In this document: piece by piece, positions 336-28,276 of the stretch | Numbering within the stretch: the stretch's first letter is position 1 | How the letters are laid out: each line of letters starts with the position of its first letter | The notes under the pieces: generated by a model | Database searches by the model: none | Told to the model about the DNA's origin: nothing | The model's input: only the letters and a program-made list of their open reading frames with translations | Position numbers and translations under genes: made by a program | Assembly (NCBI GenBank): GCA_947462535.1 | Contig: CANHPN010000023.1 | Location: forward strand, 1 to 33,963 | Length of the DNA stretch: 33,963 nt | Source: Akkermansiaceae bacterium | GTDB lineage: Bacteria; Verrucomicrobiota; Verrucomicrobiia; Verrucomicrobiales; Akkermansiaceae | Direction: 5' to 3'

Positions 336-1241
336 ATGCCCAACTACCACCTCAGCCAGCTCGACCAACTCGAAGCCGAAGCGATCTTCATCCTTCGCGA
401 AACCGCGGCCCAGTTCGAGAACCCCGCCCTGCTCTTTTCCGGCGGCAAGGACTCCATCGTCATGGCCTGGCTCGCCCGCAAAGCCTTTTGGCCCGCCCGC
501 ATGCCCTTCCCGCTCGTCCACATCGACACCGGTCACAATTTCCACGAAACCATGACCTACCGCGACGAATTCGTGGAACTCATCCGCGCCTCCCTCGTTG
601 TCGGCTCCGTCCAGGACTCCATCGACAGCGGCCGCGTCGTCGAGGAAAAAGGCCCCAACGCCTCCCGCAACAAACTCCAGACCGTCACCCTGCTCGACAC
701 CATCGAGCTCAACCGATACGACGCCTGTCTCGGTGGCGGCCGCCGCGACGAGGAAAAAGCCCGCGCCAAGGAACGCTTCTTCTCCCACCGCGACGACTTC
801 GGCCAGTGGGACCCGAAAAACCAGCGCCCCGAACTCTGGAACCTCTTCAACGGCCGCAAAAACCCCGGCGAACACTTCCGCGTCTTTCCGCTCTCCAACT
901 TCACCGAGATGGACATCTGGATGTATATCAAACGCGAAAAAATCCCGCTCCCGTCCATCTACTTCTCACACGAGCGCGACGTCTTCGAGCGCAACGGCTC
1001 GCTGCTCGCCGTCACCGAGTTCCTCAAGCCCCAGGACCACGAACCCGTCACCCGCCAGATCGTCCGCTTCCGCACCATCGGCGACGCCACCTGCACCGGT
1101 GCCGTCCATTCCACCGCCTCCGACCTCGACGAAGTCATCGCCGAAGTCGCCGCCGCCCGCCAGACCGAGCGCGGCACCCGCTCCGACGACAAACGCTCCG
1201 AAACCGCGATGGAAGACAGGAAGAAGGAAGGATACTTCTAA
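336..1241 (+). CDS. cysD: Sulfate adenylyltransferase subunit 2 (CysD)
   Basis: 301 aa, the usual length for CysD. The N-terminal PP-loop motif SGGKDS is at residues 35-40, followed by LVHIDTGHNF, the conserved block after the first strand, and GGGRRDEEKARAKER in the middle. The C-terminus ends in the typical acidic/basic tail EDRKKEGYF. CysD is the catalytic half of the CysDN ATP sulfurylase, which makes adenylylsulfate from ATP and sulfate in the cytoplasm; CysN supplies the GTPase. The ATG at 336 gives the expected N-terminus (MPNYHLSQLDQLEAEAI), although the leader is pyrimidine-rich and lacks a ribosome-binding site. Unusually, cysN does not follow directly: a four-helix-bundle protein gene is placed between the two. 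Confidence 0.97.
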   Translation: MPNYHLSQLDQLEAEAIFILRETAAQFENPALLFSGGKDSIVMAWLARKAFWPARMPFPLVHIDTGHNFHETMTYRDEFVELIRASLVVGSVQDSIDSGRVVEEKGPNASRNKLQTVTLLDTIELNRYDACLGGGRRDEEKARAKERFFSHRDDFGQWDPKNQRPELWNLFNGRKNPGEHFRVFPLSNFTEMDIWMYIKREKIPLPSIYFSHERDVFERNGSLLAVTEFLKPQDHEPVTRQIVRFRTIGDATCTGAVHSTASDLDEVIAEVAAARQTERGTRSDDKRSETAMEDRKKEGYF

Positions 1242-1260
1242 GACACGAAGACGTCTAAAA

Positions 1261-1279
1261 GTCTTAAAGTCTAAATGTC
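1261..1279 (+). repeat. Left inverted-repeat arm flanking the four-helix-bundle gene
   Basis: gtcttaaagtct (1261-1272) is the exact reverse complement of 1734-1745, and gtctaaatgtc (1269-1279) of 1743-1753. The arms lie on either side of the 1353-1715 gene. The words are permuted, so only one pairing can form at a time. Confidence 0.75.
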
Positions 1280-1321
1280 TGAAAGTTATAAGATTCGAAC
1301 ACTCCTCTTCGACCTCTTCCC

Positions 1322-1338
1322 TTTAGACCTTTAGACTC
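1322..1338 (+). repeat. 17-bp direct repeat, left copy
   Basis: tttagacctttagactc is identical at 1322-1338 and 1747-1763, flanking the gene between cysD and cysN. It belongs to the GACCTTTAGAC word family also seen near 3690 and 21390. Confidence 0.8.
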
Positions 1339-1352
1339 CCAAAAAAAATCGC

Positions 1353-1715
1353 ATGACAGTAGAACGCTTCGAAGACCTCCGGATCTGGCAGGACGCGCGA
1401 GCCCAAGCCAATCACATCTACGATTCGTTCGGTGCTGATGCCCCGTCGGCCCGCGATTTCGGTTTTCGGGATCAAATCCAGCGTTGCGGCGTGTCCGTGA
1501 TGAACAACATCGCCGAAGGATTCGAACGCAGATCGGATCCTGATTTCGCCCGCTTTCTGGATATCGCCAAGGGATCGAACGGGGAAGTTCGCAGCATGCT
1601 TTATCTGGCAGAAGATCGCGACTATCTTCCATTCCAAGTCGCCAATGAAATGAGAACTTCCAGCGAGAATCTCAGTCGCGCTATCGAATCGCTCGCCAAA
1701 CACCTCCGCATCTAA
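1353..1715 (+). CDS. Four-helix-bundle protein (23S rRNA intervening-sequence protein family)
   Basis: 120 aa, typical length for this family. It has the conserved opening FEDLRIWQDARA, the middle block QIQRCGVSVMNNIAEGFERRSDPDFARFLDIAKGS (split here only for description) and a helical C-terminus. The family fold is a four-helix bundle. It was first found encoded in 23S rRNA intervening sequences, but members are now common as free-standing genes of unknown function. It interrupts the cysD-cysN pair, is flanked by a 17-bp direct repeat and by inverted repeats, and its codon choice (more A/T at third positions, e.g. gatcggatcctgatttc) is less GC-biased than cysD or cysN. These facts suggest it arrived by insertion. 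The family call is secure; the role is unknown. Confidence 0.92.
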   Translation: MTVERFEDLRIWQDARAQANHIYDSFGADAPSARDFGFRDQIQRCGVSVMNNIAEGFERRSDPDFARFLDIAKGSNGEVRSMLYLAEDRDYLPFQVANEMRTSSENLSRAIESLAKHLRI

Positions 1716-1733
1716 TCTGCCTCTCCGACCTTC

Positions 1734-1763
1734 AGACTTTAAGACATTTAGACCTTTAGACTC
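1734..1763 (+). repeat. Right flank: inverted-repeat arm plus 17-bp direct repeat
   Basis: Contains agactttaagac (1734-1745) and gacatttagac (1743-1753), reverse complements of the left arm, and the second copy of tttagacctttagactc (1747-1763). The cysN ATG is 10 bases further on. Confidence 0.75.
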
Positions 1764-1773
1764 TTTTATAACC

Positions 1774-3018
1774 ATGGACCTACTCCGCTTCACCACCGCC
1801 GGTTCCGTCGACGACGGCAAATCCACCCTCATCGGCCGCTTGCTCTATGATTCCAAATCCATCTTCGAGGACCAACTCGAAGCCATGGAGGAATCCTCCC
1901 GCCGCCGCGGCGACGAAAACGTCAACCTCGCCCTCCTCACCGACGGCCTCAAGGCCGAGCGCGAGCAAGGCATCACCATCGACGTCGCCTACCGCTACTT
2001 CGCCACCCCCAAGCGCAAGTTCATCATCGCCGACACCCCCGGCCACACCCAGTACACCCGCAACATGGTGACCGGAGCCTCCACCGCCAACCTCGCCATC
2101 ATCCTCATCGACGCCCGCAAAGGCGTCATCGAGCAAACTAAGCGCCACAGCTTCATTGCCAACCTACTGCGCATCCAGCACCTCGTCGTCGCCGTCAACA
2201 AAATGGACCTCGTCGATTACTCCGAGGAGGTCTATAACAAGATCATCCAAGACTTCCGCGACTTCGCCTCGCGTCTCGACAACATCGTCGAAATCACCGA
2301 CATCCCGATCTCCGCGCTCAACGGCGACAACGTCGTCGACAAGTCCGAGCACATGCCTTGGTATCAGGGGCCCACCTTCCTCTATCACCTCGAACACGTC
2401 TATGTCGGCGGCGAGGAAAACCACGTGGACGCCCGCTTCCCCGTGCAGTGGGTCATCCGCCCGATGAGCGACGAGTGGCACGACTTCCGCGGCTACGCCG
2501 GCCGTGTCGCCGGCGGCGTTTTCAAACCCGGCGACGAAGTCACCGTGCTGCCTTCCGGCTTCAAAACACGCGTCAAGGCCATCCACAGCCCGGACGGCGA
2601 GCAGGAGGAAGCCTTCGCCCCGCAGTCCGTCTGCATCACACTCACCGAGGAGATCGACATCTCCCGCGGCGACACGCTGGTAAAGACTAACAATCCGCCC
2701 ATCGTCTCCCAGGACATCGAGGCCATGATCTGCTGGTTCTCCAACAAGCCGATGCCGCCCAAGGCCAAGCTCGTCATCCGCCACACCACCCAGGAAACCA
2801 AAGCCATCATCCAGGACGTGAAATACCACGTGGACATCAACACCCTCCACAAAATCGAGGGCGTGGACGGCTTCGCCATGAACGACATCGGCCGCATCAC
2901 CCTGCGCACCGCCGTCCCGCTCATCCACGACTCCTACCGCCGCAACCGCGCCACCGGCTCGTTCATCCTCATCGACCCCGGCACCAACGAAACCGTCGCC
3001 GCCGGCATGATCGTCTAG
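1774..3018 (+). CDS. cysN: Sulfate adenylyltransferase subunit 1 (CysN), GTPase
   Basis: 414 aa. GTP-binding motifs are in order: G1 GSVDDGKST at residues 10-18, G3 DTPGH at 87-91, G4 NKMD at 142-145. The remainder matches the two beta-barrel domains of elongation-factor-like GTPases. CysN couples GTP hydrolysis to the CysD-catalysed synthesis of adenylylsulfate. It ends after the second barrel and has no C-terminal APS-kinase fusion, consistent with a separate cysC. The ATG at 1774 gives an N-terminus (MDLLRFTTAGSVDDGKS) that begins close to G1, as is normal for shorter CysN forms. No Shine-Dalgarno is visible; the leader is pyrimidine- and A/T-rich repeat DNA. Confidence 0.97.
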   Translation: MDLLRFTTAGSVDDGKSTLIGRLLYDSKSIFEDQLEAMEESSRRRGDENVNLALLTDGLKAEREQGITIDVAYRYFATPKRKFIIADTPGHTQYTRNMVTGASTANLAIILIDARKGVIEQTKRHSFIANLLRIQHLVVAVNKMDLVDYSEEVYNKIIQDFRDFASRLDNIVEITDIPISALNGDNVVDKSEHMPWYQGPTFLYHLEHVYVGGEENHVDARFPVQWVIRPMSDEWHDFRGYAGRVAGGVFKPGDEVTVLPSGFKTRVKAIHSPDGEQEEAFAPQSVCITLTEEIDISRGDTLVKTNNPPIVSQDIEAMICWFSNKPMPPKAKLVIRHTTQETKAIIQDVKYHVDINTLHKIEGVDGFAMNDIGRITLRTAVPLIHDSYRRNRATGSFILIDPGTNETVAAGMIV

Positions 3019-3683: not shown

Positions 3684-3726
3684 TTCCTCCGACCTTCCGA
3701 CCTTTCGACCTTTCGACTTCACACCT
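3684..3726. repeat. GACCTTTCGACC word repeat between convergent genes
   Basis: Phased words gaccttccgacctttcgacctttcg lie between the end of hicA and the end of the minus-strand membrane protein gene. This is the same word family as 1303-1340, 1724-1763, 10598-10625 and 21385-21410. Here it does not precede a start codon, so the family is not strictly a leader element. Confidence 0.6.
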
Positions 3727-5499: not shown

Positions 5500-6039
5500 G
5501 TGCTCACCGAAATCGATATTCTCAAGGATATCAGCGCACGTCTTGATGGTCTTTCGGTGCCTTATATGCTCACCGGCTCCATGGCCATGAACTACTATGC
5601 CGTGCCCCGGATGACCCGTGACATCGACATAGTCATCACCCTCCCGAATACTTCTGTGGCTGAATTCGTCATGGCACTCACTCCGGACTACATGATCGTC
5701 GAAGAGGCGGTCGCCAGCGCTGTCGCAGAGGATTTCATGTTCAATGCCATCCATGAAGAAGCCATCATCAAGGTGGATTTCGTATGCCGTAAAAACAACG
5801 CCTTTCGATTATTGGAATTCGAACGACGCCAACAAGTCTGCATCGGCGATTTCCAAACCTGGATCGTTTCCAGGGAAGACCTCATTCTCTCCAAACTCTT
5901 CTGGGCTAAAGACAGTCAATCCCAGACCCAGCGACAAGATGTCATCAACCTGCTTTCCGCAGGTTGCGACATCGAATACCTGCGCCGATGGGCGCTCCAA
6001 CTTGACGTTTTATGCGAGTTGAACACACTCCAGCCATGA
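5500..6039 (+). CDS. Nucleotidyltransferase-fold protein (AbiEii/MNT-like)
   Basis: 179 aa, starting with GTG at 5500. The polymerase-beta-like nucleotidyltransferase signature is present: LTGSMAMNYY with GS at residues 26-27, DIDIVI with aspartates at 41 and 43, and a third acidic position in KVDFV (about D93). The C-terminal half is helical (REDLILSKLFWAKDSQSQTQRQDVINLL), which resembles the SKL-W-K-D-S-RS-QD-DI pattern of stand-alone nucleotidyltransferases. Such proteins can act as toxins (AbiE, MenA) or as antitoxins that modify a partner. The next gene overlaps its stop in ATGA fashion, so the two are probably co-translated. Neither a partner HEPN protein nor an AbiEi-like regulator is recognisable. 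The fold call is good; the biological role is inferred. Confidence 0.82.
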   Translation: MLTEIDILKDISARLDGLSVPYMLTGSMAMNYYAVPRMTRDIDIVITLPNTSVAEFVMALTPDYMIVEEAVASAVAEDFMFNAIHEEAIIKVDFVCRKNNAFRLLEFERRQQVCIGDFQTWIVSREDLILSKLFWAKDSQSQTQRQDVINLLSAGCDIEYLRRWALQLDVLCELNTLQP

Positions 6040-6296
6040 ACGACACCTCCGAATCCTTGGACCGACAATTCCGGGCCATGTTGATGACAAAGTCCGGGGC
6101 TGACCGCCTTCAGATGGGTTCCAGCATGTTCGACTCCGCGCGTCGCATGATGCTGGCATCCTTCCCTAAAGATCTCCTTCCTCACGAACTCAGGCAACTC
6201 ATCCTCGCAAGAACCTACCCGGAACTGATCAAGTCACCACTGCCCATGGCACCACCGCCTGAAACGCTGGAAAAAAATCTGAACCCTGAATCCTGA
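6036..6296 (+). CDS. Small helical protein coupled to the nucleotidyltransferase
   Basis: 86 aa from the ATG at 6036, which overlaps the previous stop codon (ATGA), implying translational coupling. The sequence has a mostly helical core: DSARRMMLASFP, then KDLLPHELRQLILARTYPEL, a pattern I associate with small proteins found beside such genes, but I cannot name a family. The gene's last codons (N-L-N-P-E-S) lie in a period-7 ctgaatc tandem repeat, so its native C-terminus may have been altered by the repeat. It has no membrane segment or signal peptide. Its tight coupling to a nucleotidyltransferase suggests a two-gene toxin-antitoxin-like or modification module, which is inference only. Confidence 0.7.
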   Translation: MNDTSESLDRQFRAMLMTKSGADRLQMGSSMFDSARRMMLASFPKDLLPHELRQLILARTYPELIKSPLPMAPPPETLEKNLNPES

Positions 6297-6320
6297 ATCC
6301 TGAATCCTGAATCCTGAATC
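6279..6320 (+). repeat. Tandem heptamer repeat (ctgaatc)x6
   Basis: Six head-to-tail copies of ctgaatc (the first is ctgaacc), followed by decayed copies (ccgagtccagaatccc). The stop codon of the preceding gene lies in the third copy (6294-6296). Confidence 0.9.
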
Positions 6321-6417
6321 CCGAGTCCAGAATCCCATCGTCCCGGCTCCGCGTCCCTTTGCGACCTTTGCGCCTTGGCGGTTTAAATCTCTTCCTCTTC
6401 CGCGCCCCCCGTGGGCG

Positions 6418-12171: not shown

Positions 12172-12425
12172 GGGGTGGTAGATCAGAGGTCAGAGGGCCA
12201 TGCGGCAGGAAAGTGAGCGCGGTGGTGTTAATTTTGAATTTTGAATGTTAAATTTTGAATACTGAAGAATGGATCCTGCAAATGCCCGTAGTCTCATCTC
12301 ATCCAAAATTAAAAATTAAAAATCAAAAACCCCTCTTCTTGCGCCCTCTGCGCCTTGTTCAAATTTTTTCTCATCCAGAATCCAAAATTAAAAATTAAAA
12401 ATCGCTTCCGCCCTCCGCCCTCCGC
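12172..12425. repeat. Spacer with ATTTTGAAT/ATTAAAAATT words
   Basis: No gene seen. Holds attttgaattttgaatgtt words (12230-12258), the 17-base ctgaagaatggatcctg (12262-12278, identical to 22135-22151), aaattaaaaattaaaaatc twice (12305-12325, 12384-12402), and a decayed gcgccctctgcgccttg element (12341-12360). It ends in cgccctccgccctccgc directly before the next ATG. Confidence 0.75.
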
Positions 12426-21189: not shown

Positions 21190-22192
<1,003 letters not shown>

Positions 22193-27272: not shown

Positions 27273-28160
27273 ATGAAATCCGATCGCAGAGACCTCGTCA
27301 TGACACTTGCCTACCGCTACCCGTGGGAGGATCTGAGCGTCTTCGTGAACTCGCTGAAAAGCTCCGGTTTTACCGGGGATCTCGTGGTATTCGCCGCCCG
27401 TCTCGACAAGCGGACGATCCGGGAACTGGAGTTACGCGGGGTGGTGGTGGTGCGGATTTTCCTGCCGCTCTACCGCCTTGCCAACGTCTTCCTGATTCCC
27501 GCTTGGAGACCGTGGCGCTGGCTGTTGCGGATGATCCCCGGACGCGCGGCCAAGCGGAACCTCGCCAAGCATATTTTCAGCATCATGTGCACGCGCTTCG
27601 CTTATTTTCATGACTACCTCGCACGCCACCGCGACAAGTATGATCAGGTGATGATTAGCGATGCGCGCGACGTCTGCTTTCAAAGCCCGCCTTTTGAAAA
27701 CCTCGGCACGGAGTCCGTGGTGACGTTCCTGGAAAACCAGCCGATCTCGGAAAACAAGGCGAACTTGATCTGGCTCGTCCAGACCTATGGCGGCAAGTTC
27801 CCGCCCGCGCTCCTCCACAAACCCATCGCATGCGCGGGCGTGACCCTCGGCACGACGGATGGCATGATGGCCTATCTCACACAGATGCTCGATGGCATGT
27901 TCAACGCCGTGAAAATGCGGCCTGTGGACGGCACCGACCAAGCGGTTCATAACTTCATTTTCCACACCGGACTGCTGGAGGAAAGCGCCATGATGCCAAA
28001 CGGCAACCCGATCTGCATGACCATGGGTCCCGGAGATCCTTTTGAACTCGACGAGGATTTCCGCCTTATCTCCCAAGGCCGTGTCGTTTCGATCCTCCAT
28101 CAATACGACCGGTTCCCCGAGTTGAAGGCCGCCAAGCAGGAGCGCTACGTGCAATGTTGA
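27273..28160 (+). CDS. Putative glycosyltransferase, GT-A-like, unassigned family
   Basis: 295 aa from the ATG at 27273; an in-frame TTG six bases upstream is less likely. The best clue is QVMISDARDVCFQSPPF (about 125-141), a D-x-R-D-V-x-F-Q pattern resembling metal-binding blocks of GT-A transferases. A later IACAGVTLGTTDGMM (the N/C-A-G-x-x-x-G acceptor-strand pattern) and VDGTDQAVHNFIFH (the D-Q block) follow. I have no family name for it with confidence. It begins with a basic MKSDRRDLVMTLAYRYPW and has no membrane segment. Neighbours are a GT4 upstream and an MBOAT acyltransferase downstream, so a glycan-assembly role is likely. Confidence 0.65.
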   Translation: MKSDRRDLVMTLAYRYPWEDLSVFVNSLKSSGFTGDLVVFAARLDKRTIRELELRGVVVVRIFLPLYRLANVFLIPAWRPWRWLLRMIPGRAAKRNLAKHIFSIMCTRFAYFHDYLARHRDKYDQVMISDARDVCFQSPPFENLGTESVVTFLENQPISENKANLIWLVQTYGGKFPPALLHKPIACAGVTLGTTDGMMAYLTQMLDGMFNAVKMRPVDGTDQAVHNFIFHTGLLEESAMMPNGNPICMTMGPGDPFELDEDFRLISQGRVVSILHQYDRFPELKAAKQERYVQC

Positions 28161-28276
28161 ATGCTGGATGTTGAATGTTGAATCCGAAAAGAGAATCGCC
28201 AATCCGCCATCCCTTCCGCTCTTCCCTTCAGAATTCAAAATTCAGAATTCAAAATTCAGAATTCAAAATTTAAAAT
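28161..28276 (+). repeat. ATTCAAAATTCAG word repeat before the MBOAT gene
   Basis: tgttgaatgctggatgttg and related words, then agaattcaaaattcagaattc repeated (28231-28275). Period is near 10. The words are shared with 7048-7065, 12228-12402, 22100-22192 and 31235-31258. Confidence 0.75.

Follow-up and report, generated by a model that had tools for sequence, protein, structure and literature searches.

The cysD-cysN locus and its inserted gene

The window, namely the whole stretch of 33,963 nt that was analysed (contig CANHPN010000023.1, GenBank assembly GCA_947462535.1, from an Akkermansiaceae bacterium), carries near its start the genes of the two sulfate adenylyltransferase subunits, cysD and cysN. 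As the initial annotation had stated, they are split by a 120-aa gene of the intervening-sequence type (table 1). The profiles matched by the inserted ORF, PF05635 and TIGR02436, are those of the 23S rRNA-intervening sequence protein and the four helix bundle protein, respectively; genes of this family have been encountered chiefly as insertions in rRNA. An ORF of the S23/IVP family and terminal inverted repeats flanking it, i.e. two features of the intervening sequence (IVS) elements, are both present, and the gene lies between cysD and cysN, not inside a 23S rRNA gene; a known structured RNA was excluded in so far as an Rfam search of the window gave no match. No reverse transcriptase gene is found beside the S23 gene.

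Table 1. Genes and repeats of the cysD-cysN region, in window coordinates.
Feature	Position	Strand	Profile matches (E-value)
cysD, host gene on the upstream side (small subunit of sulfate adenylyltransferase)	336..1241	+	NF003587 (1.2e-135), TIGR02039 (8e-125)
5' arm, 12 nt past the cysD stop and made up of about four words of 8 nt (GTCTAAAA-type; core NGTC)	1253..1286	+	
Extra word pair of the downstream type, directly ahead of the S23 start codon; one copy of the 17-bp direct repeat	1322..1338	+	
S23/IVP four-helix-bundle protein gene, 120 aa	1353..1715	+	PF05635 (5.5e-32), TIGR02436 (7.6e-29)
3' arm, made up of 8-nt words that complement those of the 5' arm; its end lies 10 nt ahead of the cysN start	1721..1763	+	
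cysN, host gene on the downstream side (large subunit of sulfate adenylyltransferase)	1774..3018	+	TIGR02034 (5.4e-171)

The two short inverted pairs previously noticed around the gene are real, and both lie inside one larger pair (1253-1285 with 1721-1753; 33 nt, 85% complementary). When the two 150-nt flanks are scored for local inverted similarity, they give 20.5, a value that none of 2000 dinucleotide-preserving shuffles attained, the best of which scored 19.0. The 17-bp direct repeat (1322-1338 and 1747-1763) is likewise perfect, as described, and consists of the same word pair, with one copy directly ahead of the ORF and the other within the array that follows it. Even with one mismatch allowed, no further copy of this 17-mer is found in the 2.82-Mb own genome and, therefore, the word belongs to the window locus. 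The arms are of an 8-nt variant, with the cores CG/AG/AG/TG/AG (NGTC) instead of five AGs. The S23 gene itself shows a dN/dS of 0.07 with respect to its orthologue in genome G001. A profile search of the own genome for further copies, which had been suggested along with an inspection of their flanks, yields five PF05635 genes in all, three of which (L001, L002 and L004) reach the arm threshold defined below, while L003 and L005 fall below it.

Association of inverted arms with S23 genes

For each gene, the 150 nt upstream were scored against the reverse complement of the 150 nt downstream, and a score of at least 14 was taken to indicate inverted arms. In the own genome and its relatives, 73 of the 93 S23 genes sampled pass (median score 19); among mismatched flank pairs of this set the median is 7.5 and 2.3% reach 14, and none of 352 control genes, which were called by a crude ORF caller and come mostly from one genome (G004), does so. 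In the same genomes inverted arms are also rare around cysD (3/28) and ahcY (0/23), and they are found around none of 36 genes of the window. A wide set drawn from many phyla behaves similarly, with 47 of 80 loci passing (1.4% of mismatched pairs), and the passing loci include Bacteroidota, Gammaproteobacteria, Ruminococcus, Planctomycetota and Desulfobacterota. The S23 genes below threshold are 20 of 93 and 33 of 80 in the two sets, respectively. The refuting possibility that the repeats are simply a leader word family unconnected with the gene is, thus, not borne out, the word being confined to its locus and inverted arms accompanying S23 genes across phyla.

These counts are to be read in the light of the way the sets were assembled. 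Of the 95 distinct S23 genes in the loci examined, 93 had flanks of the required length (100 nt or more) and were used; the loci stem from the five own-genome matches, the top-scoring match in each of 29 genomes and a further 60 loci hand-picked from the score-ordered matches listed. The wide set comprises the best 80 among the matches listed when named genomes were scanned. Judging by name, length and arm, at least two of these loci, L159 and L168, apparently lie on contigs already represented in the first set, as L022 and L082. Furthermore, loci sharing a junction are related, so that counts across loci are not independent. At the level of genomes, 55 of 59 relatives carry at least one PF05635 gene.

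Anatomy of the arms

The arms are built of words repeated with a period of mostly 7 nt. In the 120 loci with arms, identity between positions is 0.625 at lag 7 and 0.596 at lag 14, 0.354 at lag 8 and 0.353 at lag 15, and 0.25-0.28 at the remaining lags; identity is highest at lag 7 in 95 loci and at lag 8 in 19. The commonest core of the period-7 arms is AG (32/83). Chains of at least four AG upstream together with at least four CT downstream, at a spacing of 7 or 8 nt, are found in 42/93 and 36/80 loci (controls, 1/352), and the opposite orientation is found in two, one and none of the same three groups, respectively. When single spacings are considered, AG chains of four or more occur at 7 nt in 40/93 and 43/80 loci and at 14 nt, a multiple of 7, in 9 and 14; for each of the other spacings between 3 and 13 nt, no more than three loci have such chains.

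The distribution of chain lengths has two peaks, one at 2, which is background, and a second one at 5, the latter length being found for AG in 22/93 and 19/80 loci and for CT in 19/93 and 23/80. With one locus taken per junction group, the second peak of the AG chains persists but is lower than the background one (a mean of 8.8 of 36 at length 5, with 2.1 at 4, 2.5 at 6 and 12.0 at 2), and that of the CT chains is weak (5.8 at 5 versus 8.9 at 3). Inside junction groups identity amounts to 0.95 and 0.92 at the two AG positions and to 0.51-0.86 at the remaining ones, in a comparison in which 262 of the 348 pairs were drawn from one junction group. The words vary from locus to locus, yet both arms of a given locus match: when arms are swapped inside junction groups the score falls from 19 to 11.25, and the own pair exceeds the median swapped pair in 39 of 45 cases.

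A further feature of the arms of the 93 and 80 loci is an excess of mismatches with A in the 5' arm and C in the 3' arm (71 and 31, respectively), which would be U.G wobbles in the antisense strand only.

Operon junctions with and without the S23 gene

S23 genes lie in sense between two co-directional genes in 66 of the 93 loci and are antisense to both in three; the corresponding figures for the wide set of 80 are 48 and one. Judging from translations, the junctions that recur are presumably metK-ahcY, nrdA-nrdB, gyrB-gyrA, those of nuo genes and livG-livF, AhcY being the one gene name among them that was checked by search. An exact match to a 23S primer site is present in 0 of 173 loci. The S23 protein is under purifying selection, as indicated by dN/dS values of 0.03-0.31 (median 0.12; 13 usable pairs of 246).

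The cysD-cysN junction is far from uniform among the relatives, which disposes of the possibility that they always carry the gene there. The whole junction is spanned by 25 of 30 cysD loci of the genus: three contain an S23 gene (L035, L036 and L051), eight a nucleotidyltransferase-like gene, nine a gene-free gap of 96-296 nt and five a gap of 4-61 nt. A fourth genome with S23 at this junction is that of L048, where the gene lies at a contig end, and a fifth is that of L030, from the first set. In five of the nine gene-free gaps inverted arms score above all 60 shuffles. Empty junctions had been predicted to carry one copy of the 17-bp repeat; such junctions exist, but none of the 29 other cysD loci, including 24 that cover the junction in full, contains the 17-mer. 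Similarly, among the 22 of 30 metK-ahcY loci that could be scored, S23 is found in 11 and missing from 11, and six of the latter have gaps of 21-36 nt.

More than one S23 lineage is found between cysD and cysN. The five nearest rows to the window protein reach down to 41% identity and do not include the S23 protein of L051/L090 (genome G014), which is of another lineage and 76% identical to that of L091 at a different junction. The idea of a cassette moved into the operon is, therefore, upheld as far as S23-less junctions in relatives and a second lineage at the same junction are concerned, while the movement itself is inferred and would be rare, since S23 genes mostly cluster by junction: the tree, computed by FastTree from few columns, requires 14 changes of junction label, where the minimum is 10 and the mean of shuffled labels is 42.2. 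Pairs of S23 genes at different junctions may be alike while their arms differ (L013/L015, 82%; L090/L091, 76%). In one case a 32-nt arm found at an nrd junction recurs at ahcY in another family (L034 or L076 with L104).

As to the other insert between cysD and cysN, the AbiEii-like nucleotidyltransferase gene is found in L050, L052-L057 and L064, and at a contig end in L059, its assignment to AbiEii resting on a weak Pfam match of one of three sequences tested (E 0.0019). An insert unrelated to S23 at the same position suggests that the junction has been repeatedly entered by unrelated cassettes. In L030, word hairpins with a nearly identical loop flank the S23 gene on both sides, as if the unit lay inside a duplicated hairpin.

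Interpretation and alternative explanations

The anatomy of an S23 gene flanked by matching arms is well supported, and the proposal of a free-standing IVS-type gene with inverted flanks in an operon gains from the recurrence of the package at many other operon junctions. We regard the window locus as one resident of a widespread class of elements, in which an S23 gene is bracketed by its own inverted word arrays and placed in sense between two co-transcribed genes, and we give this reading a probability of about 0.55. It may best be pictured as a settled, IVS-like element of protein operons, the pentameric product of which would read its own arms of spaced words.

The mechanism is put forward as a testable proposal. 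The S23 protein would recognize the arms through short cores recurring every 7 or 8 nt, mostly AG and, in the window, NGTC, which are typically five, one for each subunit. Five chains are present in each of the solved relatives, 2gsc and 2rld, and the Xanthomonas protein is described as a homopentamer in PMC4990558; the oligomeric state of the proteins of the present set is assigned by homology, and the correspondence of five cores to five subunits is our inference. If the protein read spacing more than sequence, the words might drift while the arms stay usable. It would be chiefly as DNA that the arms are kept alike, either because one is copied from the other or because both ends are recognized; the gene would be expressed from the host operon mRNA; and the element would stay settled for long periods, moving rarely. 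The IVSs of 23S rRNA would then be a special case, in which the element landed in an rRNA helix. A broader formulation, which is tentative, sees S23 proteins in general as spacing readers, i.e. pentameric rings contacting five mostly-AG cores 7 or 8 nt apart, so that the ends of the element are set by rhythm and not by sequence. Such elements would colonize protein operons throughout bacteria, their arms being kept alike by copying, and would decay into the intergenic heptamer and octamer arrays that have long lacked an explanation, with the 23S rRNA IVS as an outlying niche.

The arms might, alternatively, act in RNA, by pairing in the operon mRNA to form a stem that RNase III cuts, so that the S23 segment is removed or separated. 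The arms do bracket the gene, which is mostly in sense (66 vs 3 and 48 vs 1), and the 532-nt junction RNA folds better than all of 100 shuffles, with arm-to-arm pairing (z -3.48, 0/100); furthermore, excision of a heptamer-bearing IVS from 23S rRNA by RNase III is published (PMC4990558). A selected stem in the sense strand should, however, tolerate G.U pairs, yet A.C mismatches between arms outnumber G.U ones by 86 to 51 in the relatives and by 51 to 33 in the wide set, and loci with an excess of A.C outnumber those with an excess of G.U by 37 to 11 and 19 to 7, where composition would predict about 0.9 G.U per A.C. A sense RNA stem as the cause of the matching arms is, therefore, disfavoured, and processing of this kind appears unlikely. 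In view of the same bias we think that the two arms are kept alike as DNA, and that the protein reads the repeated core.

It is less plausible still that the arrays reflect a genome-wide microsatellite habit, with slippage in intergenic DNA producing tracts in which S23 genes merely land. Word arrays without S23 are indeed common in the window, and inverted arms mark five of the nine gene-free cysD-cysN gaps; but few other genes in these genomes have such flanks (0/352; cysD 3/28; ahcY 0/23), array orientation is fixed relative to the S23 gene and the association spans many phyla. Four S23-free relatives show no arrays in the 256 kb sampled, although they do not provide a clean negative, since the S23-bearing G056 and G041 likewise have none in 164 kb. 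As for an ordinary transposon, with the arms as terminal inverted repeats and the 17-bp direct repeat as its footprint, the inverted ends, the empty junctions in relatives (the five gaps of 4-61 nt among the 25 spanned) and the two S23 lineages at one junction are what it would produce. On the other hand, the element contains no transposase, the arms are not the same at different loci, the grouping of the S23 genes largely follows the junction (14 label changes, compared with a minimum of 10 and with 42.2 when shuffled), and the 17-mer, absent from the other cysD-cysN junctions, belongs to the arrays. A target-site duplication, as the initial annotation had implied in taking the repeat for an insertion footprint, is rejected on the latter ground, and a transposon of this type is highly improbable.

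Relation to known systems

The arrangement is closest to the Coxiella-type 23S IVS, for which PMC4990558 reports an S23-family ORF of unknown function between terminal inverted repeats. Tandem heptamers of variable number lie beside the S23p start (three GACAGAT units and a fourth, degenerate one ahead of it), and a 28-bp stem is cut by RNase III. Here, in contrast, the host is a protein operon instead of an rRNA gene, the words vary by locus, and the ORF, which likewise codes for a protein of unknown function, is under strong purifying selection, where the same source speaks of reductive evolution. Intergenic heptamers of Xanthomonas and Nostoc (PMC4692102) resemble the arms in having 7-nt units, mostly four per array, and two Xanthomonas genomes contain 70 and 75 convergent inverted pairs; one word per genome is used there, unlike the locus-specific words of the S23 arms. 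The TAACTGA repeats of Beggiatoaceae, cyanobacteria and Bacteroidetes are also direct heptamer repeats near start codons within operons, and their author raised the possibility that what moves is a protein binding the repeats; they differ from the S23 arms in having a single fixed word and almost no inverted pairs (PMC4679880). Neither S23 nor a helix bundle is mentioned in the passages searched of PMC4692102 and PMC4679880. The behaviour of a REP/RAYT-like family, in which one repeat is expected to be spread genome-wide, does not agree with a 17-mer confined to the window locus.

The protein ring TRAP reads a short core at fixed spacing, one per subunit, and in this respect resembles the mode proposed for S23, but it has eleven subunits and a different fold. 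Avd, the accessory protein of diversity-generating retroelements, is a relative with a four-helix bundle that forms pentamers, binds nucleic acid and works with a reverse transcriptase; dependence of this type was rejected for S23, as 18 of 55 S23-bearing relatives have no RVT_1 match.

The IVS studies of the 1990s left the S23 family an orphan, and to our knowledge it has stayed one. A search of the open-access literature, subscription journals lying outside its scope, found no paper linking S23 operon elements to word arrays and nothing useful on the S23 or Avd ring, and no published description of the general S23-plus-arms arrangement was found; the window locus is one member of it. The recurrence of the package in operons of many bacteria offers a concrete lead on what S23 recognizes. 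If protein operons, with matched arrays on either side, are the general setting of S23 genes, the arms are the obvious candidate ligand and binding can be tested; two puzzles, namely the intervening sequences of rRNA and the intergenic heptamer repeats, would also be connected.

Word arrays without S23 genes

The window contains 23 arrays of 7- or 8-nt words, nine of which have an inverted partner within 500 nt (score at least 13), as do 4 of 500 random pieces. Solo arrays, i.e. those with no inverted partner within 500 nt, include 288-323, which immediately precedes the cysD start, 3688-3717, 6279-6335 and 21416-21474. The long 7-nt array at 6279-6335 lies near an ORF (5500-6036) with a DUF6036/AbiEii-like nucleotidyltransferase match (3.2e-05). 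Gene-free word hairpins, in which arrays do have inverted partners, are found at 12230-12402, 22104-22190 and 28153-28276, and are perhaps relics of such elements.
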